Positions 31,403 through 63,489 of a stretch of DNA of 64,000 nucleotides are shown one piece after another (positions within the stretch are counted from its first letter, which is position 1; every line of letters begins with the position of its first letter). A program made the position numbers and the translations under genes. The notes below the pieces were generated by a model. It was not told the origin of the DNA, searched no databases, and saw only the letters and a list, made by a program, of their open reading frames with translations. The stretch is from the NCBI RefSeq assembly GCF_003335215.1, contig NZ_QPGB01000001.1, positions 1 to 64,000 on the forward strand. Reading direction: 5' to 3'. This stretch comes from Parvibium lacunae. GTDB lineage: Bacteria > Pseudomonadota > Gammaproteobacteria > Burkholderiales > Burkholderiaceae_D.

Positions 31403-31436
31403 GAAAAAAAAAGGGCAACGATGTCATCGTTGCCCT
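31403..31436 (-). terminator. Intrinsic terminator of fbp
   Basis: Perfect 12-bp arms AGGGCAACGATG (31412-31423) and CATCGTTGCCCT (31425-31436) with a one-base centre. On the minus strand they are followed by a run of nine or more T residues. It lies 22 bp beyond the fbp stop codon. Confidence 0.88.
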
Positions 31437-34569: not shown

Positions 34570-35211
34570 ATGTTTGAAAAAACACTGCTGCATTTCCTAC
34601 TGGGCGGATTTATTAGCTTGATTACCATCACCAATCCGCTGTCTAAAATTCCTTTATTTATCAGCCTCACGGCGGGCTCTACGAGCAGCTTACAAAAGAA
34701 AATCGCGCGCCAAGCTTGTCTCTACGCCTTTTTCATCATGTTGGTGAGCTTGTTTGCGGGGACTTTTATTCTGGATTTTTTTGGCATTTCCTATGGTGCG
34801 TTACGGATTGCTGGTGGCATTACCGTGGCGATTGTCGGGTACCGCATGTTATTTGAAACGGCGAACACGCAAAGTGCGAGTGAGCATCATCACCGCAATG
34901 TGGCATTCTTTCCCTTGGCATTGCCCTCCATTAGTGGGCCGGGCACGATTGCCGTGGTCATTGGTATTTCGACTGAAATTGCCGAGCTCAAGGGGATTCC
35001 TGCACGCAGCTTGGCCTATTCGGGAACTGTCCTCGCCTTGTTGATGACATGTTTGGTGATGTGGCTAACCTTGCGCTCAGCCCAATATGTCTTAACCATG
35101 ATTGGCCGGGAAGGGATGGAAGCGATGACCCGTATGATGGGATTTTTGCTGATCTGTGTGGGCGTTCAATTTATGGGCTCTGGTGTCCGTGCCTTTATGG
35201 CAGGTGCTTAA
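34570..35211 (+). CDS. MarC-family integral membrane protein
   Basis: 213 residues from the ATG at 34570. Six hydrophobic segments are visible, beginning with LHFLLGGFISLITITNPLSKIPLFISLT, which includes the family NP motif. The second half repeats the pattern (PLALPSISGPGTIAVVIGIS), and the protein ends with MMGFLLICVGVQFMGSGV. MarC proteins have no proven transport substrate despite the old drug-resistance name. The frame extends upstream to 34387, but that part would overlap the divergent radical SAM gene. Confidence 0.9.
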   Translation: MFEKTLLHFLLGGFISLITITNPLSKIPLFISLTAGSTSSLQKKIARQACLYAFFIMLVSLFAGTFILDFFGISYGALRIAGGITVAIVGYRMLFETANTQSASEHHHRNVAFFPLALPSISGPGTIAVVIGISTEIAELKGIPARSLAYSGTVLALLMTCLVMWLTLRSAQYVLTMIGREGMEAMTRMMGFLLICVGVQFMGSGVRAFMAGA

Positions 35212-47637: not shown

Positions 47638-48957
47638 TCAGTCAGTGGGCTCGGTCAGCCGTTGAATCGTCAGCGCACATCGCTGTTCGATCAGTGTATT
47701 GATTTGCTCCACCACCGCATTGCCCGCAAAACCTCGTTCCGGGTTTGATTGCAATGCGCGTGCGGCGGCGGGCAGTTGCTTGGCTAATTCCAAAATCCGT
47801 CGTTTGGTTTGCGCTTTGGTTAGGCCCACGTTTTCCGAAAACTGCGCCCAGTGTCGTGCCTGCACCTCGCTGAACTTATATTTGTTGCCGATTTTCATGG
47901 CCATCTTCGGTGTCAGCGTGGGGTAAATCGCCGTAGAAAGCGTGTCGTAAAACGGCGCTAAAACGGGCGGCTGATTTGGGCTTGGGTTGGGATCGGTATA
48001 CAGCAACGAGAAATTTTTGGCATGCGCATCATGGTTGCCGATCAGTGCATTAAAGATCACATAATCAAGCAGGTGCAGTATCTGCGGTGCGCTGGGTCGC
48101 GTCATGCGGCGGACTAATTCAAAACACTGTGCCAAATCCGGGCCACCTTCGTTTTGGTATTTCATTTCGGGCACCACGCCCAGCGCCTGACAAAAATCTT
48201 CCTGATGCAGGCGTTGCAGTTGCTCTTGTGTATGTTCCTGCGCCTGTTTCTGTGTATTTTCCTGACTGTTAGGCACGCGGTCGTAACGCTCAACCAGTAA
48301 GAATGCGCGATCTTGCACAACATGAATAGCCGATTTTGCGGGCTTAAGCTGCATTGCCTCCGCCAGTGCCATGCAAAACCCTTCATTCATCACGCTGTCT
48401 GCTACGCCGTGAATAGCGGGTTTTAAAATGTGGGAGCTAGGCCTACCCTGGCGGGGTAGCCCAATGCGGGCACCATCAAACACCACCGGTAGTTTATCTT
48501 GCGCCCCCGCCAAGGAAAGCCGTAAGCCATCGGTGCCAGCCAGCATGGGCCGACGTGGTAATTCATCCAGCAGCGATACAAGCGCTGCATCACTCAGCCA
48601 CTGCACCGTATCCTGCTGGGGGGGCACGGGCAAAGTCTGCCCTGGCGCAAGTAAGCTCACCGCCCCCGCGCATTCGCCGCCAATGCGGTCTAGCAGCGCA
48701 AAATCGTTCTGGCCCGACACCTGAAACTGCTGTGCCAGCAAGCGGCGCATTTGCCCTTCTGGCAGCAGGCCCGCAAAGAAAGGCCGCGTTTGCCGATCAT
48801 CGAACGGTGTAGCTTGTAGCGGTAGCGAGGCGGACAACGCCATCGCCCCTGGCTGAGCCAGCCAACTCGGTGCGTAGCAAAAACTCAGCTTGCCCTCAAC
48901 CAAACCGAGTGTGCCAACCTGGTGGCTAAACAGCCAGACGGCGAGCTCATGCCGCAT
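47638..48957 (-). CDS. hipA: HipA-family serine/threonine kinase toxin
   Basis: 439 residues from the ATG at 48957; the frame is open to 48978. The N-terminal domain (LAVWLFSHQVGTLGL, LPEGQMRRLLAQQF) and the kinase domain (LSLAGAQDKLPVVFDG, HILKPAIHG) are followed by the catalytic NHDAHAKNFSLLY and APFYDTLSTAIYP. These are HipA hallmarks. HipA-type kinases phosphorylate glutamyl-tRNA synthetase or related targets and cause growth arrest. A Gln/Thr-rich insert (about residues 230-250) is unusual. It overlaps hipB by 11 bp. Confidence 0.9.
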   Translation of the reverse strand: MRHELAVWLFSHQVGTLGLVEGKLSFCYAPSWLAQPGAMALSASLPLQATPFDDRQTRPFFAGLLPEGQMRRLLAQQFQVSGQNDFALLDRIGGECAGAVSLLAPGQTLPVPPQQDTVQWLSDAALVSLLDELPRRPMLAGTDGLRLSLAGAQDKLPVVFDGARIGLPRQGRPSSHILKPAIHGVADSVMNEGFCMALAEAMQLKPAKSAIHVVQDRAFLLVERYDRVPNSQENTQKQAQEHTQEQLQRLHQEDFCQALGVVPEMKYQNEGGPDLAQCFELVRRMTRPSAPQILHLLDYVIFNALIGNHDAHAKNFSLLYTDPNPSPNQPPVLAPFYDTLSTAIYPTLTPKMAMKIGNKYKFSEVQARHWAQFSENVGLTKAQTKRRILELAKQLPAAARALQSNPERGFAGNAVVEQINTLIEQRCALTIQRLTEPTD

Positions 48958-49207
48958 GGTTGCTATCCTCTTGCGCATCGTTGGTCGCCACGGGTGGCAA
49001 GCCGCTCAAGTGAAGCTCGCCGCCCAGCGCATCCACCACGCGCAACACGTTTTCCAAGCGCAAGGTGGGTTTACCCGCTTCTAGGTCAACAATAAAGCGC
49101 ACGCCCACCCCCGCCGCCAGCGCTAACTGGGGCTGGGTAAGGTGGAGCTGCTTGCGTGCGGCGCGCAGGGCGCGCCCGAGTTGTGTGGGTGATTGAATGG
49201 ATGTCAT
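48947..49207 (-). CDS. hipB: HipB-like helix-turn-helix antitoxin
   Basis: 86 residues of Xre-type helix-turn-helix: LGRALRAARKQLHLTQPQLALAAGVGVRFIVDLEAGKPTLRLENVLRVVDALG. The typical HipB ends here with a short tail. It neutralises HipA and represses the operon; the three palindromes just upstream are its likely binding sites. Confidence 0.88.
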   Translation of the reverse strand: MTSIQSPTQLGRALRAARKQLHLTQPQLALAAGVGVRFIVDLEAGKPTLRLENVLRVVDALGGELHLSGLPPVATNDAQEDSNHAA

Positions 49208-49233: not shown

Positions 49234-49247
49234 TTCCCGTTCGGGAA
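49234..49247. promoter_or_regulatory. HipB operator candidate 1
   Basis: TTCCCG-TT-CGGGAA, a perfect 6-bp inverted repeat 27 bp upstream of the hipB start. First of three copies. Confidence 0.65.
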
Positions 49248-49283: not shown

Positions 49284-49297
49284 TTCCCGATCGGGAA
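49284..49297. promoter_or_regulatory. HipB operator candidate 2
   Basis: TTCCCG-AT-CGGGAA, same arms as the first copy; the centres are 50 bp apart. Confidence 0.65.
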
Positions 49298-49326: not shown

Positions 49327-49352
49327 ATATATTTCCCGAACGGGAAATATAT
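49327..49352. promoter_or_regulatory. HipB operator candidate 3 (extended palindrome)
   Basis: The same TTCCCG/CGGGAA core (49333-49346) with ATATAT flanks on both sides, giving 12-bp arms around an AA centre. It lies 49 bp from copy 2. The near-regular 49-50 bp spacing (about five helical turns) would put the three sites on one face of the DNA. Confidence 0.65.
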
Positions 49353-49578
49353 TTAGGTCTCAGAGCCAAACCGACCCCCACTTGCGCCGATTTGGCAGGG
49401 TATACATGACAGCAGTGCGCATGCTCTGTTGCGGAGAATAACGGCAACAATATCCGCAGAAATTGCGGTGAATAGTTCCGCAAATCTATAGCTTGCCTAG
49501 CGAGACGGGCCTGCACAGCGTGGCAATGTGCAACACCCCCACAACGTTTTCTTGCTTGGGCACAAGCAGTAGCGGATA
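49353..49578. other. Non-coding boundary between hipBA and the restriction island
   Basis: 226 bp with no supportable gene. It contains a small hairpin (CCGCA-GAAAT-TGCGG, 49454-49468) and several scattered TTGCGG/CCGCAA words. I searched it by eye for a tmRNA or tRNA end that would mark the left edge of the island and found none. Confidence 0.4.
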
Positions 49579-49599
49579 ATCTAATCAATTTGATTAGAT
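49579..49599. promoter_or_regulatory. 21-bp palindromic operator candidate of the WYL regulator
   Basis: Perfect 10-bp arms ATCTAATCAA and TTGATTAGAT around a single T, 75 bp upstream of the WYL gene. BrxR/CapW-type WYL repressors are known to bind such inverted repeats in front of their own defence operons. Confidence 0.6.
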
Positions 49600-49674: not shown

Positions 49675-50586
49675 ATGCCCCTCCAACGCATAGAGACGCT
49701 GAGCCACGCCCAGCGCGATCGGCTGGCCTATATAGATTTCCGTCTGTACTTCTTCGGTGAGATTGGCCGCCCTGACCTGATAGAACGGTTTGGTGTGGCG
49801 CCGGCAGGGGCCACACGCGATTTGGCACTGTACCGGGAAATCGCGCCGCAGAATATTGAGTTTGACGGCAGCAATAAGATCTACCGCATCGGCAAAATGT
49901 TCTCGCCGCTATTTGACCACGCCCTCCAGCGCGTGCTGTCCGCATTGGCTCTGGGCTTCGGCGATGGCGTGAGCGGCCCGGCGAACCTCCTGCAGTCGCT
50001 GCTGCCTTGCGAGTCACCCACTGCCCTAAGCAACCCCAGGATGGATGTGTTAGCTCCGATCTGCCGAGCGATACACGCCAAGCGGCCAGTCGCCATTCGC
50101 TACCACTCCATGAGCAGTGGCGAGTCCGAAAGAGTCATCGTGCCGTTTGCGCTGGTGGACACCGGCCTACGTTGGCATGTCCGAGCCTTTGATCGCAAGA
50201 GCAGCGAGTTCCGGGACTTCGTCGTCACGCGCATCGAAGCGCCGACCCTTCTTGATGAAGAGCCGCAGGCCAACGAACGGCCAGACAACGACATCCAATG
50301 GACACGCATTATCGAGCTGGACTTCGTGCCGCACCCGCGCCTCGCCCGCCCCGAGATCATCAAGATGGACTATGGGATGACTGACGGCTCGATCCGGATG
50401 CGCGTTCGCGCGGCGGTGGCGGGCTACATGCTGCTGCGCTGGAGCGTTGATGCTTCACCAAACCACAGCCTCACAGAAGAACAGTACCGCCTTTGGCTCA
50501 GCGACCCGCTGGCCTTGTATGGCGTCGAAAACGCAAAGCTCGCGCCCGGCTACCGCGCCCCGGCGACCAGCACAACACGGAAATAG
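49675..50586 (+). CDS. WYL-domain transcriptional repressor (BrxR/CapW-like)
   Basis: 303 residues. The N-terminal winged helix contains RLAYIDFRLYFFGEIGRPDLIERFGVAPAGATRDLALYREIAP, typical of BrxR/CapW regulators. The WYL domain follows with KRPVAIRYHSMSSGESERVIVPFALVDTGLRWHVRAFD and FRDFVVTRI, then a WCX-like C-terminus. Such proteins act as autorepressors of phage-defence operons. It starts 75 bp after a 21-bp palindrome and ends 8 bp before hsdM, so it probably controls the whole restriction and Kiwa-like operon. Confidence 0.85.
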   Translation: MPLQRIETLSHAQRDRLAYIDFRLYFFGEIGRPDLIERFGVAPAGATRDLALYREIAPQNIEFDGSNKIYRIGKMFSPLFDHALQRVLSALALGFGDGVSGPANLLQSLLPCESPTALSNPRMDVLAPICRAIHAKRPVAIRYHSMSSGESERVIVPFALVDTGLRWHVRAFDRKSSEFRDFVVTRIEAPTLLDEEPQANERPDNDIQWTRIIELDFVPHPRLARPEIIKMDYGMTDGSIRMRVRAAVAGYMLLRWSVDASPNHSLTEEQYRLWLSDPLALYGVENAKLAPGYRAPATSTTRK

Positions 50587-50594
50587 GATCACAA

Positions 50595-53075
50595 ATGGCC
50601 ATCAAGAAATCAGACCTTTACTCATCTCTCTGGGCGTCATGCGATGAACTGCGCGGCGGCATGGATGCCAGCCAGTACAAGGACTACGTCCTGTTCATGC
50701 TGTTCATCAAGTACGTCTCGGACAAGTACGGCGACTCTGATGACTTTGCCCCGCCAGTCACCATTCCGCCCGGAGCCAGCTTCAAGGACATGGTTGCCCT
50801 CAAGGGCAAGAGCGATATTGGCGACAAGATCAACACGCAGGTCATTCAGCCCCTGATCGACGCAAATTCGCGCCTTGCACGCAGCGACTTCCCCGATTTC
50901 AACGACCCGAACAAGCTCGGTGAAGGTCAGGCGATGGTGGATCGCCTCAGCAACCTGATCGGCATCTTCCAAAAGCCCGAGTTGGATTTCTCGAAGAACC
51001 GAGCTGAGAACGACGACATTCTGGGCGATGCCTACGAATACCTGATGCGGCACTTTGCCTCGCAGAGCGGCAAGAGCAAAGGCCAGTTCTATACGCCATC
51101 CGAGGTCAGTCGCATCATGGCCAAGGTCGTGGGCATCTCCCCTGCCAATGCAGTGGCCTCGACCACCGCGTATGACCCCACCTGCGGCTCTGGCTCCTTG
51201 CTGCTCAAGGTGGCCGCCGAGGCTGGCAAGCACATCACGTTGGAAGGGCAGGAAATGGACGTGACCACTGCTGGTCTTGCCCGTATGAACATGATCCTGC
51301 ACGACTTTCCAACCGCCAACATCCTGCAGGGCAACACGCTGGCCTCGCCGAAGTTCAAGGATGGCGAGGCGCTGCGTACCTATGACTACGTCGTCGCCAA
51401 TCCGCCGTTTTCAGACAAGACCTGGAGCACCGGCCTGACCCCTGCCAGCGATGCTCACCAGCGTTTTGCTTGGGGCGAACCGCCGAAAAAGCAAGGCGAC
51501 TACGCTTACCTGCTGCACATCATTCGCTCAATGAAGAGCACTGGCAAAGGCGCCTGCATTCTCCCTCACGGTGTTCTTTTCCGGGGCAATGCCGAGGCTG
51601 TCATCCGCGAGAAGCTGGTGCGGTCGGGCATCCTCAAAGGGATCATTGGCCTGCCGGGCAACCTGTTCTACGGCACGGGCATCCCCGCCTGCATCCTGGT
51701 GCTGGACAAGGAAAACGCTTCAGCACGCAAAGGCATCTTCATGATCGACGCCTCCAAGGGCTTCATCAAGGACGGTGCCAAGAACCGCCTGCGTGAGCAG
51801 GACATTCACAAGATCGTCGATGCCTTCACCAAGTTGGCAGAGTTGCCACGCTACTCGCGCATGGTGCCGCTGACCGAGATCGCAGACCCCAAGAACGACT
51901 ACAACCTCAACCTGCCACGCTACATCGACAGCACCGAACCTGAAGACATCCAGGACATCGATGGCCACTTGCGTGGCGGGATTCCAGAGCGTGACCTGAA
52001 TGCGTTGAGCGACTATTGGAAGGTGATCCCCGGTGTGCGCAACGCCCTGTTCGAGTCAGCCGGGCGCGCTGGTTATGCACAGTTGAAACTGCCCATCGCC
52101 GAGGTGAAGACTACCATCTTTGTGCATCCTGAGTTCACTGCATTTAATCAGACAGCCACCCAGGTGTTTGCGGATTGGAAGCAAGCCAGCACGCCGCAGC
52201 TAAAGGGCTTTGCGAAAAACGGCCACCCAAAGCAACTGATCGAGGCACTGTCCGAGGATTTGCTTGCCCGATTCAAGCCGACGCCGCTCGTCAATGCCTA
52301 TGACGTGTACCAACACCTCATGGATTACTGGGCCGAGACGATGCAAGACGACTGCTACCTGATTGCCGACGCAGGCTGGCAGGCTGGGGCACAGCCGCGT
52401 GAAATTCTTCAAGTCAAGAACAAGGACGGCAAACTGGCGTGGCCCGAAGCGCATGACTACAAGAAAGGCAAGCGCCGCTTCAAATCCGACCTGATTCCCG
52501 CGCCAATTCTGATCGCCCGTTACTTCACCGTTGAGCACGACGCCATTGAAGCGCTGGAGGCCAAGCTGGCAGATGTCGAGCAACAACTTCAGGAGATGAT
52601 GGAAGAGAACAGCGGCGAAGAAGGGTTGCTCGCCGAGGTCATTGAAGGCGAAGGCGACAAGCAGAAGATCACGGCTAAGGCTGTCAAAGCCCGCCTGAAG
52701 GAGATCGGCAAAGATCCTGACTACGCCGACGAGCGCAAGGCGCTGCAGGACTACGCCGCCTTGCTCGACAAGCAAACCGATATCAAGGCCAAGCTGAAAG
52801 CGGCGCAGGATGACCTTGAGGCCAAGCTGGATGCCAAGTACCCCAAGCTGACCGAGGACGAGATCAAGCAGCTTGTAGTGGACGACAAATGGTTGGCGAC
52901 CTTGGCCGATGCCGTGCAAGGCGAGCTGGATCGGGTTTCTCAAACCCTTACCAGTCGCATCCGCCAGCTTGCGGAACGCTATGCCACGCCGCTGCCGACG
53001 CTGACCAAAGATCTCGCAACACTTTCAGCGCGGGTGGATGAGCATCTGAAAAAGATGGGGGCGGTATGGAACTGA
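50595..53075 (+). CDS. hsdM: Type I restriction-modification system methyltransferase subunit
   Basis: 826 residues from the ATG at 50595. An N-terminal helical domain (LWASCDELRGGMDASQYKDYVLFMLFIKYVSDKY) is followed by GQFYTPSEVSRIMA, SAM motif I DPTCGSGS (Asp194) and the catalytic NPPF (269-272). A C-terminal region of about 300 residues, including a Glu/Lys-rich coiled coil, makes it longer than the classical HsdM of about 520 residues. It methylates adenine in the sequence chosen by HsdS. It overlaps hsdS by 10 bp. Confidence 0.95.
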   Translation: MAIKKSDLYSSLWASCDELRGGMDASQYKDYVLFMLFIKYVSDKYGDSDDFAPPVTIPPGASFKDMVALKGKSDIGDKINTQVIQPLIDANSRLARSDFPDFNDPNKLGEGQAMVDRLSNLIGIFQKPELDFSKNRAENDDILGDAYEYLMRHFASQSGKSKGQFYTPSEVSRIMAKVVGISPANAVASTTAYDPTCGSGSLLLKVAAEAGKHITLEGQEMDVTTAGLARMNMILHDFPTANILQGNTLASPKFKDGEALRTYDYVVANPPFSDKTWSTGLTPASDAHQRFAWGEPPKKQGDYAYLLHIIRSMKSTGKGACILPHGVLFRGNAEAVIREKLVRSGILKGIIGLPGNLFYGTGIPACILVLDKENASARKGIFMIDASKGFIKDGAKNRLREQDIHKIVDAFTKLAELPRYSRMVPLTEIADPKNDYNLNLPRYIDSTEPEDIQDIDGHLRGGIPERDLNALSDYWKVIPGVRNALFESAGRAGYAQLKLPIAEVKTTIFVHPEFTAFNQTATQVFADWKQASTPQLKGFAKNGHPKQLIEALSEDLLARFKPTPLVNAYDVYQHLMDYWAETMQDDCYLIADAGWQAGAQPREILQVKNKDGKLAWPEAHDYKKGKRRFKSDLIPAPILIARYFTVEHDAIEALEAKLADVEQQLQEMMEENSGEEGLLAEVIEGEGDKQKITAKAVKARLKEIGKDPDYADERKALQDYAALLDKQTDIKAKLKAAQDDLEAKLDAKYPKLTEDEIKQLVVDDKWLATLADAVQGELDRVSQTLTSRIRQLAERYATPLPTLTKDLATLSARVDEHLKKMGAVWN

Positions 53076-54328
53076 TGCCCGGTTACAAGCATAGCGATGT
53101 GGGCGTGATACCAGAAGATTGGGACGTCTTGCCGCTTGGCGAATGTTTAGTTGGTCGCCCCAGCTACGGAATCAACGCTGCTGCTGCTCCGTACTCCGAT
53201 GCACTGCCGGCCTATATTCGTATTACAGACATTAGCGAAGACGGCCGATTTTCGCCAGAAAAGTTGGTATCCGTTAAGTCAGAACAAGCCGGCAACTACT
53301 ACTTGAGCGATGGCGATATTGTTTTTGCAAGGACGGGCGCAAGTGTTGGAAAGTCTTATAGATACAACCCGAACGACGGGGCACTGGTTTTTGCGGGCTT
53401 TCTGATTCGAGTTAGGCCTGATGCCAATAAGCTACTTCCTGCCTTCGCTGCTGCCTATGTAACAACCGGCAACTACTGGCGTTGGGTACGATTGATGTCG
53501 ATGCGCAGCGGACAGCCGGGCATCAATGGTAACGAATATTCTCAGCTCCCCATTCCTCTTCCACAACTCCCTGAGCAGGAAGCCATCGCCCAAGCCTTGA
53601 GCGATGTCGAAGCTTTGCTCGCCACCCTTGACCAAGTAATCGCCAAGAAGCGAGACCTTAAGCAGGCGGCCATCCAACAGTTACTCACCGGCCAGACTCG
53701 GTTGCCGGGGTTTAGCGGTGAATGGGAGGTGAAGCGGCTGGATGAGCTTGCTGAAATTCGAAGTGGCGGCACACCAAGTACGGGCGAACCTAGCTTCTGG
53801 GATGGGGATATTCCTTGGTGCACACCAACGGATATCACTGCACTTAACGGGCACAAATATCTTCGCGAAACCTCGCGTCTGATCACGCCGCTTGGGCTTA
53901 ATGCAAGCTCGGCTGAAATGATTCCAGCGAAATCAGTCGTTATGACATCGCGGGCAACTATCGGTGAATGTGCCATCAATGCTGTCCCGCTCTCAACGAA
54001 TCAAGGTTTCAAAAACTTCATTCCGTTTGTGAAAACTGATGTGGACTTTCTCTATTACCTGCTTGGAACGCAAAAGCAGGGATTAATCGCTCTATGTGGT
54101 GGAAGCACTTTCCTTGAAATCGGAAAGACACAGCTTGCAGCGTATGAAGTCCGACTCCCAAGCACGAAAGCCGAACAAACTGCCATCGCCACAGTCCTGT
54201 CCGAAATGGACGCCGAGCTGTCCGTACTCGAATCTCGCCACGATAAAACCCGCAACATCAAGCAAGCCATGATGCAGGAACTTCTGACTGGTAAAACGAG
54301 ACTGGTTGAGGGAGGATGTGATGGTTAA
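53066..54328 (+). CDS. hsdS: Type I restriction-modification specificity subunit
   Basis: 420 residues with two target-recognition domains. The first begins near VGVIPEDWDVLPLGECL and the second at SGEWEVKRLDELAEIRSGGTPSTGEP. Each is followed by a conserved helical spacer (ALSDVEALLATLDQVIAKKRDLKQAAIQQLLTGQTRLPGF and VLSEMDAELSVLESRHD to QELLTGKTRL). HsdS sets the recognised bipartite sequence. Its last 8 bp overlap the start of the kwaA-like gene. Confidence 0.93.
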   Translation: MELMPGYKHSDVGVIPEDWDVLPLGECLVGRPSYGINAAAAPYSDALPAYIRITDISEDGRFSPEKLVSVKSEQAGNYYLSDGDIVFARTGASVGKSYRYNPNDGALVFAGFLIRVRPDANKLLPAFAAAYVTTGNYWRWVRLMSMRSGQPGINGNEYSQLPIPLPQLPEQEAIAQALSDVEALLATLDQVIAKKRDLKQAAIQQLLTGQTRLPGFSGEWEVKRLDELAEIRSGGTPSTGEPSFWDGDIPWCTPTDITALNGHKYLRETSRLITPLGLNASSAEMIPAKSVVMTSRATIGECAINAVPLSTNQGFKNFIPFVKTDVDFLYYLLGTQKQGLIALCGGSTFLEIGKTQLAAYEVRLPSTKAEQTAIATVLSEMDAELSVLESRHDKTRNIKQAMMQELLTGKTRLVEGGCDG

Positions 54329-54866
54329 TTTCGTCTTTCGTCTACTGCTGACATTCAATGCCACATCGCTCCTTCTCATTATCTTTCTCGTTCAAAATCG
54401 TCAAACTCTGGAGAAATTCATTCCCGCTCTTACCCAGTTCAACCTTCCTGGCTGGATTTCGTATGCAGTTTACCTTGGCGTTCCTATTGCACTGACGGGT
54501 ATTAGCATCTTTTCCAGTTCACGCCTTGGCAAGGATGAGTTCAAGAAAGGTGAAGTTGAAAGCATTGAACACGCGAACAATAGCTTTCTTCCTAGTTATC
54601 TTGGCTATTTCTTTGTCGCGCTTGGCATCAGCAATTGGGAGGTTATGTGGTTTGTGTATGTCGTCCTTTTTGTGTTTACATTTCTATCGCAGGCGCTCTA
54701 CTTCAATCCCTTGTTCCTGTTGTTTGGCTATGAGTTCTATAACATCAAAACCAAAAACGGAACAGCGATATTCCTGATTAGCCGTCATCAGTATAAGCAG
54801 CCAGGCGATATTGAGATCGCCACGGCGTACCGTATCAACAACTATACGTTCATTGAGAAGGATTAG
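54321..54866 (+). CDS. KwaA-like membrane protein of a Kiwa-type defence pair
   Basis: 181 residues from the ATG at 54321, preceded by GGGAGG; a GTG at 54306 is possible. There are four hydrophobic segments: about 4-24, 45-65, 90-110 and 112-135. The tail NPLFLLFGYEFYNIKTKNG and AIFLISR, followed by a hydrophilic end (INNYTFIEKD), matches what I recall of KwaA-type proteins. The gene overlaps hsdS and ends 2 bases before the next gene, as expected of KwaA-KwaB. The region is visibly richer in A+T than hsdM and hsdR. Assignment is from topology, tail and partner, not from a search. Confidence 0.6.
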   Translation: MVNFVFRLLLTFNATSLLLIIFLVQNRQTLEKFIPALTQFNLPGWISYAVYLGVPIALTGISIFSSSRLGKDEFKKGEVESIEHANNSFLPSYLGYFFVALGISNWEVMWFVYVVLFVFTFLSQALYFNPLFLLFGYEFYNIKTKNGTAIFLISRHQYKQPGDIEIATAYRINNYTFIEKD

Positions 54867-54868
54867 GC

Positions 54869-55699
54869 ATGGATCACGTCTTTGCGAGGGTTAAAAATCT
54901 GCGTAAAAAGCCATTTTTTAAGCTCATCTCAGACCACACGCTGTATGAAGGTGTGAGCGTAAGTGTAGATTCTTGCGTTGCCTATAGCCCAGATCACAAT
55001 TTGGATGAAGACTCTTGGTTCAAGATTGAGGGCTTTAAAGGTTATGATTTTTGCTTGGATATTCTCAAAAAGGACTTTGATACTAAAGATTATGACGATC
55101 TGAAAAAAGAGAGGTTCTCGGAAATCGCATATCTGCTTGCCATCCAAGGTGGTAACTTCTATTTCCAGAAAGTTTCACCGTCGCTATTTATTATGCGGAA
55201 ATCTATCATTTTTGGTGAAGTGGCAAAAATTGAGAACCCCGAAAATCGCCTGGTCGTCAAGCCGTTGCCCGACGCAATTTACCTAAAAGACTCCGACACC
55301 CTAGTATTTCGCGACCTTGCGGGAATAGCTAGCATCTTCAAGGGGATAGACGTACTTTTCAAGGAGGCTACAAAGGAAGAGGTCACCAAATTCTTGTCAG
55401 AGTCATTTATAAAATTGGAAAATTACGGCGTTGATGATGTTTCCAAGCCAAACCGTAAGCGTATTGGTTTGGCAATGACGACGTTAAGCACCATGTCACA
55501 GGAGGATAGGAATTCATTGATTCCATATATCAGTGACTATTGTGAGAACACGCTGACTTACGATGCGGTCACTGGAAAATTCACCATCTGCAAAGATGAT
55601 GACTTGAAGCAGCTTGTTTACGGTATCGAGCAGCGCTTTTACACCACACTCATCAGTAAAGAAAAGCGGCTAGCCAACTCGGTGCAGACTGTTGTTTAG
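54869..55699 (+). CDS. KwaB-like (DUF4868-type) protein of a Kiwa-type defence pair
   Basis: 276 residues, soluble. The middle segment [25 protein letters not shown] and the C-terminal stretch with [16 protein letters not shown] and [24 protein letters not shown] follow the DUF4868 pattern that defines KwaB. It begins 2 bases after the four-helix membrane protein and 8 bases separate its stop from hsdR. Kiwa senses phage infection at the membrane and blocks phage replication and late transcription. The N-terminal 100 residues are unfamiliar, and the protein is somewhat shorter than classical KwaB (about 315). It is A+T-rich relative to its hsd neighbours. Confidence 0.55.
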
Positions 55700-55707
55700 G
55701 TAACAGC

Positions 55708-58700
55708 ATGGATTCTGATCTCATGAAATCGCCCATAACCCGCTCTGAGCGCAAGACGCAGAACCGTGTTGCCGCTCTGTTTACTGATGAAAGTCGCCCT
55801 GACTGCCTTGGATTTGATCACCTGGGTGAGTGGAGTAAACGCGACAATAACCGCTGCATCGAAGCAGATTTTTTGCGCGGCAACCTCAAGAAGCGTGGTT
55901 ATTCCGATGCGCACATTTCTGCTGCGCTGCAAAAGCTCCTGACCGCCGCCGACTCCACCGGCATCACCCTGTATCAAGCCAATCTGCGAACCTACCAGCT
56001 GCTGCGCTATGGTGTACCTGTACAGATTGCAACCGGGCAGGCGCATGAGACCGTACACCTAATCGACTGGGAAACCCCTGGCAAAAACGACTTTGGCTTG
56101 GCCGAAGAGGTCACCTTGCGCGGCGGCTACGAGCGGCGGCCCGATCTGGTCGTTTACATCAATGGCATCGCGGTCGCCGTCATTGAGTTGAAACGCAGTT
56201 CGGTGGAGGTGGCCGACGGTGTTCGTCAGCTCATCACCAACCAGGAAGAGATTTTCAACAAAGGATTTTTCAGCACGGTGCAGTTGGTGCTGGCGGGAAG
56301 CGACTCGCAGGGTTTGCGCTACGGCACCACGGGCACCCCTGAAAAATTTTTCGTCGAGTGGAAGGAGCGCAAGGATAAAGGCGCCGCCACATCAGAGCAG
56401 CATTCAGCAACAATGGCAGAAGGTGCGCTTCTGGACATTCCACTGGCGCAGATGTTTGACAAGGTGCGCCTGCTGGATCTGATCCGCAACTTCATCATCT
56501 TCGATGGCGGGCAAAAGAAGGTGCCTCGCGTCCATCAATACCACGGCGTGAAAGCGGCCCAGGAGCGGGTGAGGCAGCAGGAAGGCGGTGTGATCTGGCA
56601 CACCCAAGGCAGCGGCAAGAGCATTCTGATGGTGCTGATTGCCAAGTGGCTGCTGGAATTTGACCCGCACGCCCGCGTTCTGGTCATCACCGACCGTGAT
56701 GAGTTGGACAAGCAGATCGTGGGTGTGATGCGTAATGCAGGCGTGATTGGCGAGGATGCGGCATCGCCGCGCATCACCTCTCGCGCGGAACTGGTTGAAA
56801 AGCTAGGGGCAGCCACGCCACGCTTGATGTGTGCGCTGATCCACAAGTTTGATACGACCGACCTGAAGGGCGAGCCTCCGAGGGTGGTGGGCCGTGTTTA
56901 CGTCTTCGTCGATGAATGTCACCGCACGCAAGGCGGCGACATGAACAAGCAGATGAAGCGATGGCTGGAGAACGCCATCTTCATCGGTTTCACCGGCACG
57001 CCTCTGCTGCGCAAAGACAAGCAGACCACCCGCGAGGTTTTCGGCACCTACATCCACACCTACAAGTTCGATGAAGCGGTGGCCGACAAGGTTGTGCTTG
57101 ACCTGAAGTACGAAGCGCGCGATGTGCCTCAGCGCCTGACGTCAAAGAAAGCTATCGATGCGTGGTTTGATCAGAAAACCAAGGGGCTGAACAACTTTCA
57201 GCGTTCGGTTCTGCGTAAGCGCTGGGCGACGATGGAAGAGCTGATGAGTGCCGGTGAGCGCAAGCAGCGCATCATCGCCGACATCATCCACGACTTCGGA
57301 GTCCAGCCGCGTCTGAACAATGACCGGGGCACGGCCATTCTGGTGGCAGCCTCCATCTACGACGCCTGCCACTACTTCCGGTTGTTCCAGAACACGTCGT
57401 TTGGCAAGTACTGCGGAATCATTACGTCCTACGAGCCCAACCACAACGCGATTTCGCGCGAGCCCAAGGACAGCGACGAGCGCTACAAGTTTGACACCTA
57501 CACCCAGCACGTCCTGCAGAAAGATCAGACCACCAAGGACTACGAGGACAAGACCAAGCAGCGCTTCATCGATGAGCCTGCCAATCTGAAGCTGCTAATC
57601 GTGGTGAGCAAACTGCTGACCGGTTTCGATGCGCCTTCCTGCACCTACATCTACCTCGACAACGAGCTGCGCGATCACAACCTGTTCCAAGCTATCTGCC
57701 GCACAAATCGGCTTGACGGCGACGACAAGGACTATGGCCACATCGTCGACTACAAAGAGCTGTTCGAGAAGGTTCAGGATTCCATCGCCGTTTACACCTC
57801 GGACGAGCTGGACATCGACGAAGGTGGCGATGACGGCAACATCACCGTGAAGAACTGGCTGAAGGAAGGTAAGGCGCAGCTCGATGCTGCCTGGGAAGCA
57901 CTGCGCTACTTGTGTGAGCCGGTGGCCATGCCCCGCGAGATGGAGCAGTACCTCCACTACTTCTGCGGTGATGCCAACGATCCAGAAGCGTTGCTGAACA
58001 CCGAGCCGCTGCGCATCTCGTTCTACAAGTCGGCAGCCGCATTCCTGCGAGCCTATGCAGCAATTGCCCAGAACCTCGAAGAAGCAGGATATTCAGCAGC
58101 TGACATTGCTGCGCTCGAAAAAGAGATCGAGTTCTACAGCGACACCCGGACGGCGATCAAGAAGCATTCAGGTGAAGAGTTGGACATTAAGCCTTATGAG
58201 GCGGATATGCGCCACCTCATCAACACCTACATCCAAGCAGACCCGGCTGAAAATTTGGGCAATCTGAGCTCGCTCTCGCTGACCGAGTTGATCATCGAAA
58301 CCGGCATTCATGATGCCATTGCCAAGAAGCTCAACCAGAAGGGCAAGCTGTCGAGGAATGCGATTGCAGAAGGCATCATCAACAACGTCCGCAAGACGAT
58401 CATTCGGGATCAACTGACTGATCCGAAGTTTTACGAGGAGATCTCCAAGCTCCTCGAAGACCTGATCAAGCAAAAGCGCGATGACACCGCTGCCTACGAG
58501 AAATTTCTCCAGAAGGCCGAAGAGTTGGTGAAAAAGATGGCTCATAAGTGCAATGGCGAAGGGTTGCCCGCAGAGCTAGGCGCAAAACCCCAATTGGCGG
58601 CACTCTACCGAAACCTGGAGAGTATTTTGGCAAATGCTGCACCACCAAACACGCTCCAGGAGGAAGCTGCTGACTACACTAACGGGCGCCTGCAATTGAC

Positions 58701-58863
58701 ATTAAAAATTGATCAGGCAATGAGAGAGCAGGCACCAGCAAATTGGAAAGGCGATGAAATTAAAGAGAAGCAGATACTCAATGCCTTATTCCCGATCATG
58801 TCGAGGGATCGGGTGGCGACGCAGGCCATTTTTGAAATCATCAAGAACCAATCGGCTTATTGA
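55708..58863 (+). CDS. hsdR: Type I restriction endonuclease/translocase subunit
   Basis: 1051 residues. The N-terminal nuclease motif is [21 protein letters not shown] (Asp146, Glu160, Lys162). The SF2 motor has [11 protein letters not shown] (P-loop at about 299-305), [10 protein letters not shown] (Asp402, Glu403), [11 protein letters not shown] and later [16 protein letters not shown] and [10 protein letters not shown]-terminal helical domain binds HsdM. It pumps DNA and cuts unmodified targets. All motifs look intact. It is separated from hsdS by the two Kiwa-like genes. Confidence 0.95.
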
Positions 58864-58871
58864 GTAACTGG

Positions 58872-59591
58872 ATGATGAACGAGACAATCCAACTGGGCGA
58901 GATTTCAATAGCGGTGACCAGGAAGGACATCAGGAATGTCCACCTTACCGTTCATCCGCCTGATGGACGTGTAACCCTCGCGGCCCCAACCAACACTCGC
59001 CTTGAAGTGGCGCGTGCCTACGCGATCTCCAAGTTGGTCTGGATTCGTGACCAGCAGAGAAAACTGGAATGTCAGGCGCGGGAAACACCACGCCAGTTCA
59101 TTGAACGCGAGAGCCACCACGTTTGGGGGCGTCGCTACCTGATGACGGTGGACTACCAGGATGTGAAGCCTTCAGTCGTCCTCAGCAACAAGCGGATCAC
59201 CCTGATCGTTCGTCCTGGCTGCAGCGCAGACAAGCGCGCGGAGGTGATGCATGAGTGGCACAAGTCGTTGCTGCACGAGGTTGTACCGCCACTAATCCAA
59301 AAGTGGGAGCAAAAGCTCAAGGTGAGTGTCTCAGGCTACTTCCTGCAACGGATGAAAACCAAGTGGGGTAGTTGCAATCACGCAGAGGGAAACATCCGCC
59401 TCAATACGGAGTTGGTGAAAAAGCCTAAGGATTTGCTGGAGTACGTCATCGTGCATGAAATGGCTCATTTGATCGAGCCCACGCACAGTGATCGCTTCAT
59501 CGCCATCCTTGAAGAGCATTACCCCAGCTGGCGAGAGGCACGCGATGAGTTAAATGAATTGCCGCTTGCGGCAGAGGTTTGGAGGAAGTGA
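58872..59591 (+). CDS. YgjP-type (DUF45/SprT-like) zinc metallopeptidase
   Basis: 239 residues from the ATG at 58872, preferred over a TTG at 58860 and alternative to the ATG at 58875. It contains the YgjP landmarks MKTKWGSCNHAEGNIRLNTELVKKP and HEMAHL (His195-Glu196-His199) followed by EPTHSDRF with the third zinc ligand. Genes of this type often follow hsdR in type I loci; a role in defence is not established. Eight bases after the hsdR stop. Confidence 0.88.
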   Translation: MMNETIQLGEISIAVTRKDIRNVHLTVHPPDGRVTLAAPTNTRLEVARAYAISKLVWIRDQQRKLECQARETPRQFIERESHHVWGRRYLMTVDYQDVKPSVVLSNKRITLIVRPGCSADKRAEVMHEWHKSLLHEVVPPLIQKWEQKLKVSVSGYFLQRMKTKWGSCNHAEGNIRLNTELVKKPKDLLEYVIVHEMAHLIEPTHSDRFIAILEEHYPSWREARDELNELPLAAEVWRK

Positions 59592-59592
59592 T

Positions 59593-60546
59593 ATGGCATT
59601 AAATCTGGCAAAGCTCGTCATCGGCTATTTGAAAGATCGGCCTGAGCAGAAATTAACTGCACGGCAGATTGCCGAGTGGGTGTTCGCCACTTACCCAGAG
59701 GAATGCCAGGAAAAGCGGGCCAATAGCCGCGGCGATTACATCAAGTCTGATGCGGATCTGGTGCAGCAGCTCGTTGCAGAAATCAGCTCGCAGCGTCCGC
59801 GTATACAAACTAAGCATCCAGAACTCAAAACGACTGAAGGACGGCCGCGCAAGTATTATTACTCGGAGCGCTCGGACAGCGCCGAAGTGGCGGCGGCCGA
59901 AAGCGAGAGCACGTCAACGGCTGCGGATGCAAGTGCTTTGAAGATTGATGAACATGCGCTCTATCCGCTGCTATCCCAATACCTGTGGGAGGCGGAGGAT
60001 TTTGGGGTTTTCTCCAAGCGCATCGATGAGAAGCGCTCGTCCAACAAACGCGGGCCGAACGGCAACCGCTGGCTGTACCCGGACGTGGTCGGCATGAAGG
60101 ATTTGGGCAAGGAGTGGCATCGCGAAGTGCGCAACTGCGTGACTGAATATTTCGACAAACGCACCAAGCTGTGGTCATTCGAGGTAAAGCGGCTGATCAA
60201 CCGTTCGAACGTACGCGAGTGCTTTTTTCAGGCTGTATCGAACTCGTCGTGGGCCAATTTTGGCTATCTGGTCGCGGCGGAAATCGGCGGCACTGATACG
60301 CTGAAGGAACTGCGGATGCTGTTTGCCGCCCACGGCATCGGCTTCATCAAACTGGACGTGGAAAACCCTGCTGATAGCCAGGTTCTGATTCCTGCCCGAG
60401 AGCGTGACGAAATCGATTGGGATATGGTCAATCGTCTGGCCACAGAGAACCGGGATTTTCTGGAATACGTGAAGTTGGTGAAACAGTTTTACCAAACTGG
60501 TGAGGCGCGGCTGGCAGATTGGGACGTTCCCGATCTGGACGATTGA
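59593..60546 (+). CDS. HrgA-like protein (COG2958 type)
   Basis: 317 residues from the ATG at 59593. The N-terminus (LAKLVIGYLKDRPEQKLTARQIAEWVFATYPEEC) resembles the winged-helix HARE-HTH region. A low-complexity linker rich in Ser/Ala/Glu (about 100-120) is followed by YPLLSQYLWEAEDFGVFSKRIDEKRSSNKRGPNGNRWLYPDVVGM, a segment with nuclease-like spacing of acidic and basic residues. This matches COG2958/HrgA, found next to restriction genes in Helicobacter and elsewhere. It starts immediately after the metallopeptidase stop and ends the operon. Function unknown. Confidence 0.78.
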   Translation: MALNLAKLVIGYLKDRPEQKLTARQIAEWVFATYPEECQEKRANSRGDYIKSDADLVQQLVAEISSQRPRIQTKHPELKTTEGRPRKYYYSERSDSAEVAAAESESTSTAADASALKIDEHALYPLLSQYLWEAEDFGVFSKRIDEKRSSNKRGPNGNRWLYPDVVGMKDLGKEWHREVRNCVTEYFDKRTKLWSFEVKRLINRSNVRECFFQAVSNSSWANFGYLVAAEIGGTDTLKELRMLFAAHGIGFIKLDVENPADSQVLIPARERDEIDWDMVNRLATENRDFLEYVKLVKQFYQTGEARLADWDVPDLDD

Positions 60547-61576: not shown

Positions 61577-62689
61577 CTACCGGATATGATTGCCTGGATG
61601 TGCGTTGTAATGGGCGGATATTCCGCTGTTCCCCACCGAGCGCTTTCCGGGGCTATTTCGTGCAAGATCATTGCACCGAGGGCAATCCCTATTGATCGCT
61701 GTTTCCAGCGCACGCAGGTGATCGACGATGGCATCGAAGCCGGGAGGCTCGCCGATGAACATGCCGGCAGCGATCATTCGCTGAAAGTCATCGCGCAACG
61801 CGGCTAGTGCGGTGTCTTCCGGAATCAGTTTGAGCTGCCCGGCCAGGCATGCGTCGTAGTTGGCGTAGCTCGCGTTGTAGAAGATCTTCTTGTGTTTGAC
61901 CACGTCTGCGAGCAGAGTGCGATCGACCACAGCGGCTTGCCCATGTTCAATGTCGGCCAACATCGCCAAGTCGTACCAATGGCGAGACAGACGTTCGGCG
62001 CCTGTGCGGAACTCTTCGCGCTGACATTCGACGTGCATCAACGTCGCCTTCTCCCAGAAGGTACGTGCTGGGGACAGCACACTGACCGTCGGCTGCGGGA
62101 ATTCGAGTTCAGCGACATGTTCCGCAATGTCAGGCCGCACCACATGCTCCTCATTCGGCTCGGTGATGTTGCGGCCACCGAACTCGATCAGGACGCTGTT
62201 ACCGACGTAGTCTCCGGATTTCTCCAGCACGGTCGGGTAGTGCACCCGCAACTGCTCGCCGTCATCGCTGATTTCAAGACGGAATGCATCGGCGCTGAAC
62301 TCGGTGGCCAGCATCTTCTGGAAGTGTGGTACCACTACACCGTGAGCATGGTCGCGTACGAAGGACTTGAGATCTTCGCTGAACTTCTTCAGCCGATTGC
62401 GCGAGACCCCTTCGGCAAATGGGTCGAAGGTTCCGTCCAGTCCTCGATAGTCGAGGGTGATGTCTACGTCCTCGGAGAAGCGTGCGATGGCTCCGAAAAC
62501 TTTGGATAGTGAGGTGCCGCCCTTGAAGGCCATCGGAAGTCGATCGGGCATGGTGAACAGGGTCTGTAGCACCCAGCAGACCCATACATCTTTTTCCAGT
62601 ACAACAGGTGAGCGTGCAAGTTGCGGAGCAAGCGCCCGGTAAATTTGGGACTGCTCTTCTCGTTTGAGATGCAGGAAGGACTCAGGCAT
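61577..62689 (-). CDS. AbiEii/AbiGii-family nucleotidyltransferase toxin
   Basis: 370 residues. It begins MPESFLHLKREEQSQIYRAL and contains VLEKDVWVCWVL (Lys33-Asp34) and the nucleotidyltransferase core FKGGTSLSKVFGAIARFSEDVDIT (Gly57-Ser60, Asp74 and Asp76), followed by WEKATLMHVEC and RHWYDLAMLAD. This is the toxin half of an AbiE system; AbiEii enzymes modify tRNA or other NTP acceptors. The last 35 residues after LRALETAINR look unlike the family and may be a read-through into island debris. It overlaps the antitoxin gene by 8 bp. Confidence 0.88.
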   Translation of the reverse strand: MPESFLHLKREEQSQIYRALAPQLARSPVVLEKDVWVCWVLQTLFTMPDRLPMAFKGGTSLSKVFGAIARFSEDVDITLDYRGLDGTFDPFAEGVSRNRLKKFSEDLKSFVRDHAHGVVVPHFQKMLATEFSADAFRLEISDDGEQLRVHYPTVLEKSGDYVGNSVLIEFGGRNITEPNEEHVVRPDIAEHVAELEFPQPTVSVLSPARTFWEKATLMHVECQREEFRTGAERLSRHWYDLAMLADIEHGQAAVVDRTLLADVVKHKKIFYNASYANYDACLAGQLKLIPEDTALAALRDDFQRMIAAGMFIGEPPGFDAIVDHLRALETAINRDCPRCNDLARNSPGKRSVGNSGISAHYNAHPGNHIR

Positions 62690-63302
62690 GAGCTGCCATC
62701 CGCTCGTTTCGGAAGATGGCGTCGCTCATCCACGCAGGCATCGAGCTGGTGGCTGACTTCAGCACCTCGAACTCGCTCGATCCCAGCTTGCGCCGAATCT
62801 TCTCGACGAGAGCTGGAGTCACTTCCTTTTTGCCGAGGTACCACATTGCCGCAAGCGCGAGCCCCGCAGGTCGGCCGGCTAGGGCCAGCTTGCGCTGACA
62901 GACGTGCTGCAGTCTGATTTCCATCTTGCCCACGCGGATGCGCTTTGACGGGCCCGATGTCACGAATACAGATTGGGTTGGAACCTGAGTGGTCAGTTCG
63001 AGCCGACGCGCAGCTTCGGCACCGTGAATCTGGACAACCGCCCCAGTGGCCTTGGCAACGGTCTCGGCCACCTTCAGCGGTTCAGGCATTACCTTGCCGA
63101 CGAAACGGCTGACCTCAGGACGCACAAAGACGCCGCGCGTCACTCGCTCGACCGACCCTGCCTTGACGAGGCGCGACAGAGTCTGATCGACGGACGCACG
63201 CGTCCCGCACTCAAGGAATGCCGTCGGGGTGAAAGGCTCCCCAATCGGCATCGCCTCGATGCGCTCGCGAATCAGCTCGGCGGTCTTGATCGTCGTGTTC
63301 AT
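62682..63302 (-). CDS. AbiEi-type antitoxin/transcriptional regulator (DUF6088-like)
   Basis: 206 residues from the ATG at 63302; the longer frame to 63470 runs into the ssrA terminator region. An N-terminal winged helix (IKTAELIRERIEAMPIGEPFTPTAFLECGTRASVDQTLSRLVKAGSVERVTRGVFVRP) is followed by a domain of the AbiEi type (VQIHGAEAARRLELTTQVP, VGKMEIRLQHVC). It represses the operon and counteracts AbiEii. A probable promoter with CATATAT lies just upstream. Confidence 0.85.
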   Translation of the reverse strand: MNTTIKTAELIRERIEAMPIGEPFTPTAFLECGTRASVDQTLSRLVKAGSVERVTRGVFVRPEVSRFVGKVMPEPLKVAETVAKATGAVVQIHGAEAARRLELTTQVPTQSVFVTSGPSKRIRVGKMEIRLQHVCQRKLALAGRPAGLALAAMWYLGKKEVTPALVEKIRRKLGSSEFEVLKSATSSMPAWMSDAIFRNERMAAHA

Positions 63303-63461
63303 GTACGAAAATATATGCGAGTTTCTGACAAACTGCAAGTGCGACAGCTCGCTGGAGTGAGCGTGTGTCCCGGAACGGCCAATTCGGGCGGCTGGCGCAG
63401 TCCGCAGGCGTTCGCAGTAACCCGCACCAGTAAGCGGGAGCCGCCGCGATCGGGCAAGAAA

Positions 63462-63489
63462 AAACCCCAACCGATAACGGTTGGGGTTT
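63462..63489 (-). terminator. Terminator of the complete ssrA gene
   Basis: Stem AACCCCAACC / GGTTGGGGTT with a six-base loop, flanked by A and T runs, 5 bp beyond the tmRNA 3' end on the minus strand. Confidence 0.82.

Follow-up and report, generated by a model that had tools for sequence, protein, structure and literature searches.

A perfect 21-bp palindrome as the probable operator of a BrxR-family WYL regulator heading a type I restriction operon in Parvibium lacunae

The eight-gene run and the palindrome in front of it

The stretch of P. lacunae DNA investigated here (64,000 nt, referred to as the window) contains a gene for a WYL-domain protein, followed on the same strand by seven further genes (Table 1). 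A complete type I restriction-modification system is present, with hsdM, hsdS, and hsdR together, and a Kiwa-like gene pair (54321-55699) is located between hsdS and hsdR. The last gene has no match in Pfam, PADLOC, or NCBIfam. The junctions of the run are 8, -10, -8, 2, 8, -4, and -38 bp, the first of these agreeing with the distance between the WYL gene and hsdM given in a preliminary description of this locus.

Table 1. Features of the operon, its putative control region, and the neighbouring genes.
Feature	Position	Strand	Remarks
hipA	47638..48978	-	HipA_C 2.5e-50
hipB-like gene	48947..49207	-	HTH_3 4e-9
TTCCCG-NN-CGGGAA palindromes (three)	49234..49247, 49284..49297, 49333..49346		upstream of the divergent hipB-like gene
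-35 element, TTGCTT	49552..49557	+	3/6 matches; 17 bp from the -10
-10 box, GATAAT	49575..49580	+	5/6 matches; shares its last two bases with the start of the putative operator
Palindrome, ATCTAATCAA-T-TTGATTAGAT	49579..49599		perfect, 21 bp; 10-bp arms, 1-base centre
WYL gene	49675..50586	+	putative BrxR-family wHTH-WYL-WCX repressor, 303 aa; Pfam WYL 2.2e-14
Putative DNA-recognition helix, VAPAGATRDLALY	49795..49833	+	residues 41-53; corresponds by alignment to the segment of Acinetobacter BrxR that contacts DNA
hsdM, type I methyltransferase	50595..53075	+	N6_Mtase 4.1e-94, HsdM_N 1.5e-13
hsdS, type I specificity subunit	53066..54328	+	Methylase_S 1.2e-38
kwaA-like membrane gene	54321..54866	+	PADLOC KwaA 1.2e-17 (longer frame from 54306); NCBIfam KwaA 24 bits, cut-off 100
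kwaB-like gene (DUF4868)	54869..55699	+	PADLOC KwaB 3.7e-9; no NCBIfam match
hsdR, type I restriction subunit	55708..58863	+	SWI2_SNF2 2.4e-70, HSDR_N 3.1e-32
YgjP-like metallopeptidase gene	58860..59591	+	YgjP-like 1.9e-55
Eighth gene	59554..60546	+	330 aa; overlaps the YgjP-like gene by 38 bases
AbiEii toxin gene and DUF6088/AbiEi-like gene	61577..63470	-	3.4e-39 and 6.2e-27; just downstream of the operon

The palindrome has exactly the position and letters previously claimed for it, ending 75 bp short of the WYL start codon (ATG). It is single-copy in the 2.63-Mb genome, with up to three mismatches allowed. In Markov simulations of the intergenic region (467 bp), 6 of 4000 runs produced a perfect dyad with arms of at least 10 bp and a centre of at most one base. 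When centres of 0-6 bases are admitted, perfect arms of at least 10 bp occur at four places in the window, starting at 31412, 49327, 49579, and 63463, therefore symmetry alone is uncommon and not decisive; it is conservation, unlike symmetry, that is decisive for the palindrome being a real signal. Two of the other perfect long palindromes span 31412-31436 and 63463-63488, the latter resembling hairpins found upstream of the WYL gene in three of the relatives (L003, L007, and L019). The surroundings had been described as otherwise plain sequence, which is wrong, as the same intergenic region holds three TTCCCG-NN-CGGGAA palindromes; these are likely to be operators of the hipB/hipA toxin-antitoxin module.

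It had also been suggested that one operator could control eight genes. The contiguity of the run favours this; the eighth gene is the less certain member. The order WYL-hsdM-hsdS-X-hsdR-ygjP recurs in Aeromonas veronii plasmid pAV1812-2 (L120) and in a Methylophilaceae metagenome-assembled genome (L121), where X is a SMODS nucleotidyltransferase (NCBIfam CBASS_cyclase_b 104 bits, below the cut-off of 200) and a SLATT protein, replacing the Kiwa-like pair. The eighth gene of the window was seen in neither of these related operons, hence its membership is less sure. In Nitrosomonas mobilis (L122) hsdS is short and there is no insert. The slot between hsdS and hsdR therefore varies, while the switch stays. 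A general promoter scan gave a single + strand promoter-like match inside the run, at 55394 in kwaB (9/12), and none on that strand near the WYL-hsdM junction; its overall total of three is below the shuffled mean of 6.7. Terminator-like matches on the + strand inside the run are at 53129, 55137, and 60202, the overall total of 17 being close to the 13.0 expected (sd 4.2). A single transcript over all eight genes would be consistent with this arrangement.

Conservation upstream of related WYL genes

The same palindrome was sought upstream of related WYL genes, a check proposed in the preliminary description. Among 107 WYL loci found, 80 were kept (56-91% identity), and 78 were counted, as two (L044 and L052) have too little upstream DNA. 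A site of at least 15 bits by matrix is present at 76 of these 78 loci, 40 of which trained the matrix; L069 and L080 fall below. The consensus of the upstream sites is ATRTCATCAnnnTGATGATAT. None of 1986 random 300-bp pieces of the window contains a site of at least 15 bits.

Counts of fixed patterns are also given. TMATCANNNTGATKA is present in 63 of the 78 upstream regions and ATCANNNTGAT in 68, with a mean of 0.88 loci expected for ATCANNNTGAT by Markov shuffles. Read backwards, the TMATCANNNTGATKA pattern occurs in 0/78. The swapped control pattern TGATNNNATCA was found in 11/78, above the 0.88 shuffle expectation for the true core. When the count is restricted to the 42 upstream regions with less than 70% similarity to one another, 29 have TMATCANNNTGATKA and 33 have ATCANNNTGAT.

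The symmetric matrix was built from 40 of these 42 regions, two being without a site of at least 13/18 consensus letters, and the window was excluded from training. T at -7 and A at -5 are found in all 40 symmetrised training sites. The window site scores 28.4 bits, and the next best in the 64 kb scores 6.9 bits, at 34730; a counterpart of the R-BOX2 of pEFER was not found within the operon. As 40 of the 78 loci trained the matrix, on sites chosen by consensus, part of the conservation count is circular, and the independent tests are the window itself and loci added later. For these, 20 of 56 non-own WYL places were fetched, together with 6 of 703 plasmid records with a WYL match, plus pEFER. 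Six later loci at 84-90% identity score 23-32 bits; L090 duplicates L022, which leaves five new ones. Of 14 loci at 44-57% identity, only five reach at least 15 bits (L093-L096 and L110), and at 30-37% identity none of seven has the site. The operators of L120 and L121, with other genes in the slot, score 28.3 and 30.7 bits.

The same TCATCAnnnTGATGA core stands at two loci of one strain, Comamonas testosteroni SWCO2 (L006 and L027). In the P. lacunae genome, the sole other exact core (C5:57218) scores 9.9 bits and is taken as chance, and a regulon elsewhere in the genome is rejected. In viral contigs, 86 stretches (L127-L209) match one of two long patterns; a WYL relative is present in five of the 86, each time with the site directly upstream. 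An identical ATGTCATCAGATTGATGATAT is common to 65 of the 86, in 23 of these 65 inside a reading frame of more than 120 codons. It looks like a conserved phage coding motif and was not taken for an operator.

The site was also looked for where a related hsdM occurs without a close WYL gene, and was found at none of 22 such loci (best score 8.4 bits). These controls comprise 20 genome loci, of 23 non-own hsdM places, and two plasmids; of five plasmid hsdM records, pAV1812-2, which has a WYL gene, and two from Sinorhizobium were unused. The absence of a WYL gene refers to the fetched sequence, which for the genome loci extends about 0.8-2.2 kb upstream, and one control (L224) shows a very weak resemblance to WYL over 31 aa (E=9e-4). 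For 20 of the 22, hsdM identity is no higher than 54-66% (76% at the DNA level for one plasmid), leaving two close controls, L213 (89%) and plasmid pKAZ1. The latter, the sharpest of the controls, encodes HsdM, HsdR, and YgjP proteins that are 94, 93, and 95% identical, and has no WYL gene and no operator in 20 kb.

The genes behind the WYL gene are diverse. Cargo was defined as the longest ORF starting within about 670 bp behind WYL, which is not always the first gene, and was obtained from 75 of the 80 loci (L013, L018, L021, and L040 are too short and L057 has none). The 75 ORFs form 17 BLAST clusters, of which the representatives alone were identified (20 proteins). These include type I restriction subunits, GmrSD (L008, from a cluster of 19 loci), a DruE-like protein (L020), a DrmD-like SNF2 protein (L054), an HKD-SNF2 helicase (L058), and BrxC (L050). 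Cargo unrelated to defence is also present: a guanylate kinase behind L074, the one tested of a four-locus Variovorax cluster, and a transposase behind L037. The site accompanies the WYL gene, not the restriction genes, and the evidence indicates that it does so whatever the cargo.

The WYL protein, its promoter, and alternative readings

The best solved match of the WYL protein is BrxR of Escherichia fergusonii (7QFZ; E=2e-86, residues 6-294), followed by CapW (9C5G, 1.8e-37), 7TB5 (1.4e-31), 7TB6 (6.9e-30), and BrxR of Acinetobacter (7T8K, 3.4e-23). Based on this similarity along its full length, the protein is a member of the BrxR/CapW family. Members are reported to act as dimers and to regulate defence operons by binding palindromes that adjoin or overlap the promoter (PMC9122601; PMC9122589; PMC9122588). 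R16 of the WYL protein aligns with R17 of E. fergusonii BrxR, a residue reported as essential for DNA binding from the R17A change (PMC9122601), and the DNA contacts reported for Acinetobacter BrxR are S37-Q40 (PMC9122589). Four features of the family are found here: a wHTH-WYL-WCX protein, an R17 equivalent, a palindrome near or over the inferred -10, and a defence operon. The protein is not a BREX regulator in the narrow sense, as hsdM, hsdS, and hsdR are downstream, not BREX genes. Type I restriction enzymes are reported among BrxR-associated systems (34/210), as are inverted repeats upstream of 193/347 BrxR homologues (PMC9122601); the words 'consensus' and 'sequence logo' are absent from the main text of that paper.

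The closest known system is that of E. fergusonii pEFER, in which, as reported (PMC9122601; 7QFZ), the regulator matches over its full length and is likewise encoded by the first gene of a defence operon. Its R-BOX1 is a palindrome beside the -10, and the distance from operator centre to start codon is 88 bp when the start codon of PMC9122601 is used, against 86 bp in the window; from the start annotated in PLSDB, the R-BOX1 centre is 49 bp away. The sequences differ, however. At the coordinates of PMC9122601 the R-BOX1 core reads ACCTACTG-aaaaa-CAGTAGGT, whereas the window half-site is TAATCA, and half-sites of the ACCTACTG/CAGTAGGT class are not matched by the window operator. The cargo of pEFER is BREX and a type IV enzyme, and the R-BOX2 reported there has no counterpart in the window. 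The putative recognition helices differ as well (SVATQD in pEFER BrxR, AGATRD in the window), therefore the BrxR family would have at least two operator sequences.

Other systems share parts of this arrangement. CapW of CBASS operons is reported as a wHTH-WYL-WCX dimer with 19-24-bp palindromes overlapping the -10 (PMC9122588); it is more distant, and capW is transcribed away from the CBASS genes, whereas the window WYL gene is in line with its operon. In Acinetobacter sp. NEB394, a BrxR gene also heads a defence operon, and its operator, a 25-bp pseudo-palindrome, overlaps the promoter as in the window, but the protein is distant, the DNA-contacting residues are others, and the cargo is BREX (PMC9122589). 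RptR, too, is a repressor encoded by the first gene of a type I restriction island, here with DarTG2 embedded; unlike the WYL proteins, it is reported to be a small alpha-helical homodimer that binds directly repeated 6-bp TAGCTA palindromes (PMC12255303).

Residues 44, 45, and 48 may explain the difference from the pEFER operator, and this is offered as a lead only. With kinship ignored, the site is present in 88 of 97 rows with R48, in none of nine without it, and in all 76 with G45, in a table of 106 rows that counts one place twice (L090 and L022). Two loci, L098 and L099, have R48 and no matching site; by eye, the upstream sequence of L099 contains ACCTA..TAGGT. That contact residues and target sites of BrxR diverge together had already been stated (PMC9122589). 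On account of the kinship, the duplicate, the exceptions, and this prior statement, a helix-to-operator code is treated only as a lead.

The putative promoter of the WYL gene overlaps the palindrome. Among 41 loci, window included, a -10-like hexamer occurs at operator offset -4 in 31 and TTG at offset -27 in 24, with both elements together in 26 under a looser threshold. The hexamer at offset +1, inside the operator, is also -10-like in 40/41, and no TTG is conserved at a fitting distance from it. The window promoter was not listed by a general promoter scan, due to its weak -35. The transcript would be expected to start near 49587, inside the palindrome. A dimer sitting on the operator would lie across the end of the -10 and the expected start, and should therefore stand in the way of RNA polymerase.

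This geometry bears on the alternatives. The WYL protein could bind the palindrome and mainly regulate itself or act as an activator, with hsdM onward under their own promoter. There are reported activators among WYL regulators (PafBC and DriD), and the restriction cassette on pKAZ1, without WYL, indicates that such genes can be expressed without it. However, a site on the -10 and start point is the position of a repressor, and the narrow WYL-hsdM gap, free of nearby + strand promoter-like matches, argues against a promoter of hsdM itself, making this arrangement unlikely. It is very improbable that the palindrome is instead an RNA hairpin in the leader, acting as an attenuator or stability element. 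Its RNA fold is strong (-12.5 kcal/mol, z -3.3, with 1/200 shuffles as good), as is true of any perfect palindrome; but with a start near 49587 only about half of it would be transcribed, the half-site letters are fixed across relatives as expected of a protein site, and there is no T run behind it. The hairpin and terminator readings were rejected on promoter geometry and fixed half-site letters, despite the strong fold. That the palindrome is the operator of the divergent hipB-like regulator, with which it shares an intergenic region, or a chance symmetry, as four perfect long dyads in the window might favour, is hardly credible, since hipB has its own set of three palindromes closer to its start, for which the HipB reading was rejected, and WYL genes in other contexts also have the WYL palindrome upstream.

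The palindrome is very probably the operator of the downstream BrxR-family WYL repressor, a dimer of which would block RNA polymerase at its own operon. Repression by a BrxR/CapW-type protein through this palindrome, as the preliminary description had it, is supported by the full-length similarity to BrxR, the conserved operator, the conserved promoter with its overlapped -10, and the separation from the restriction genes. Counting against it are the promoter's weak fit to the consensus, the partial circularity of the conservation count, the frequency of the swapped pattern, the different sequence of R-BOX1, the loss of the site at lower WYL identity, and the modest identity of most hsdM controls. 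Each half-site (T[C/A]ATCA) would receive one winged helix of the dimer, which, bound over the -10 and start, would hold down its own gene together with hsdM, hsdS, the Kiwa-like pair, hsdR, the YgjP-like peptidase, and the eighth gene. A ligand arising from infection or DNA damage, possibly a nucleic acid, may then act through the WYL domain to free the DNA. The WYL proteins PafBC and DriD are reported to bind single-stranded DNA, and we would guess at a similar releasing signal here.

A conserved operator before varied defence cargo

This type of switch is already known (BrxR/CapW, 2022). Two things are added here: a conserved class of operator that differs from the proven R-BOX1, with evidence that it stays with its regulator across different cargo, and, behind that switch, a position between hsdS and hsdR at which the defence genes vary. 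In the mostly open-access main texts that were searched, neither this operator consensus was met nor a type I restriction operon that is controlled by BrxR and has Kiwa or CBASS-like genes embedded in it. The same operator address before many different defence systems is a useful added detail.

More speculatively, and rather less likely than not, the WYL gene and its 21-bp operator may be a portable socket into which defence cargo is exchanged, including type I restriction, GmrSD, DruE-like, SNF2-helicase, and BREX systems. Repressors from separate islands or plasmids in the same cell would then recognise one another's operators and couple the release of several systems; C. testosteroni SWCO2, with its two loci, is a strain in which this could occur.

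For P. lacunae, the type I restriction operon and the Kiwa-like pair inside it are placed under a probable BrxR-type switch, and for the family the conserved operator is a concrete target for searching and testing. If operators are shared across islands, defence systems that were acquired separately may be released together, and a plasmid-borne repressor could silence resident systems.
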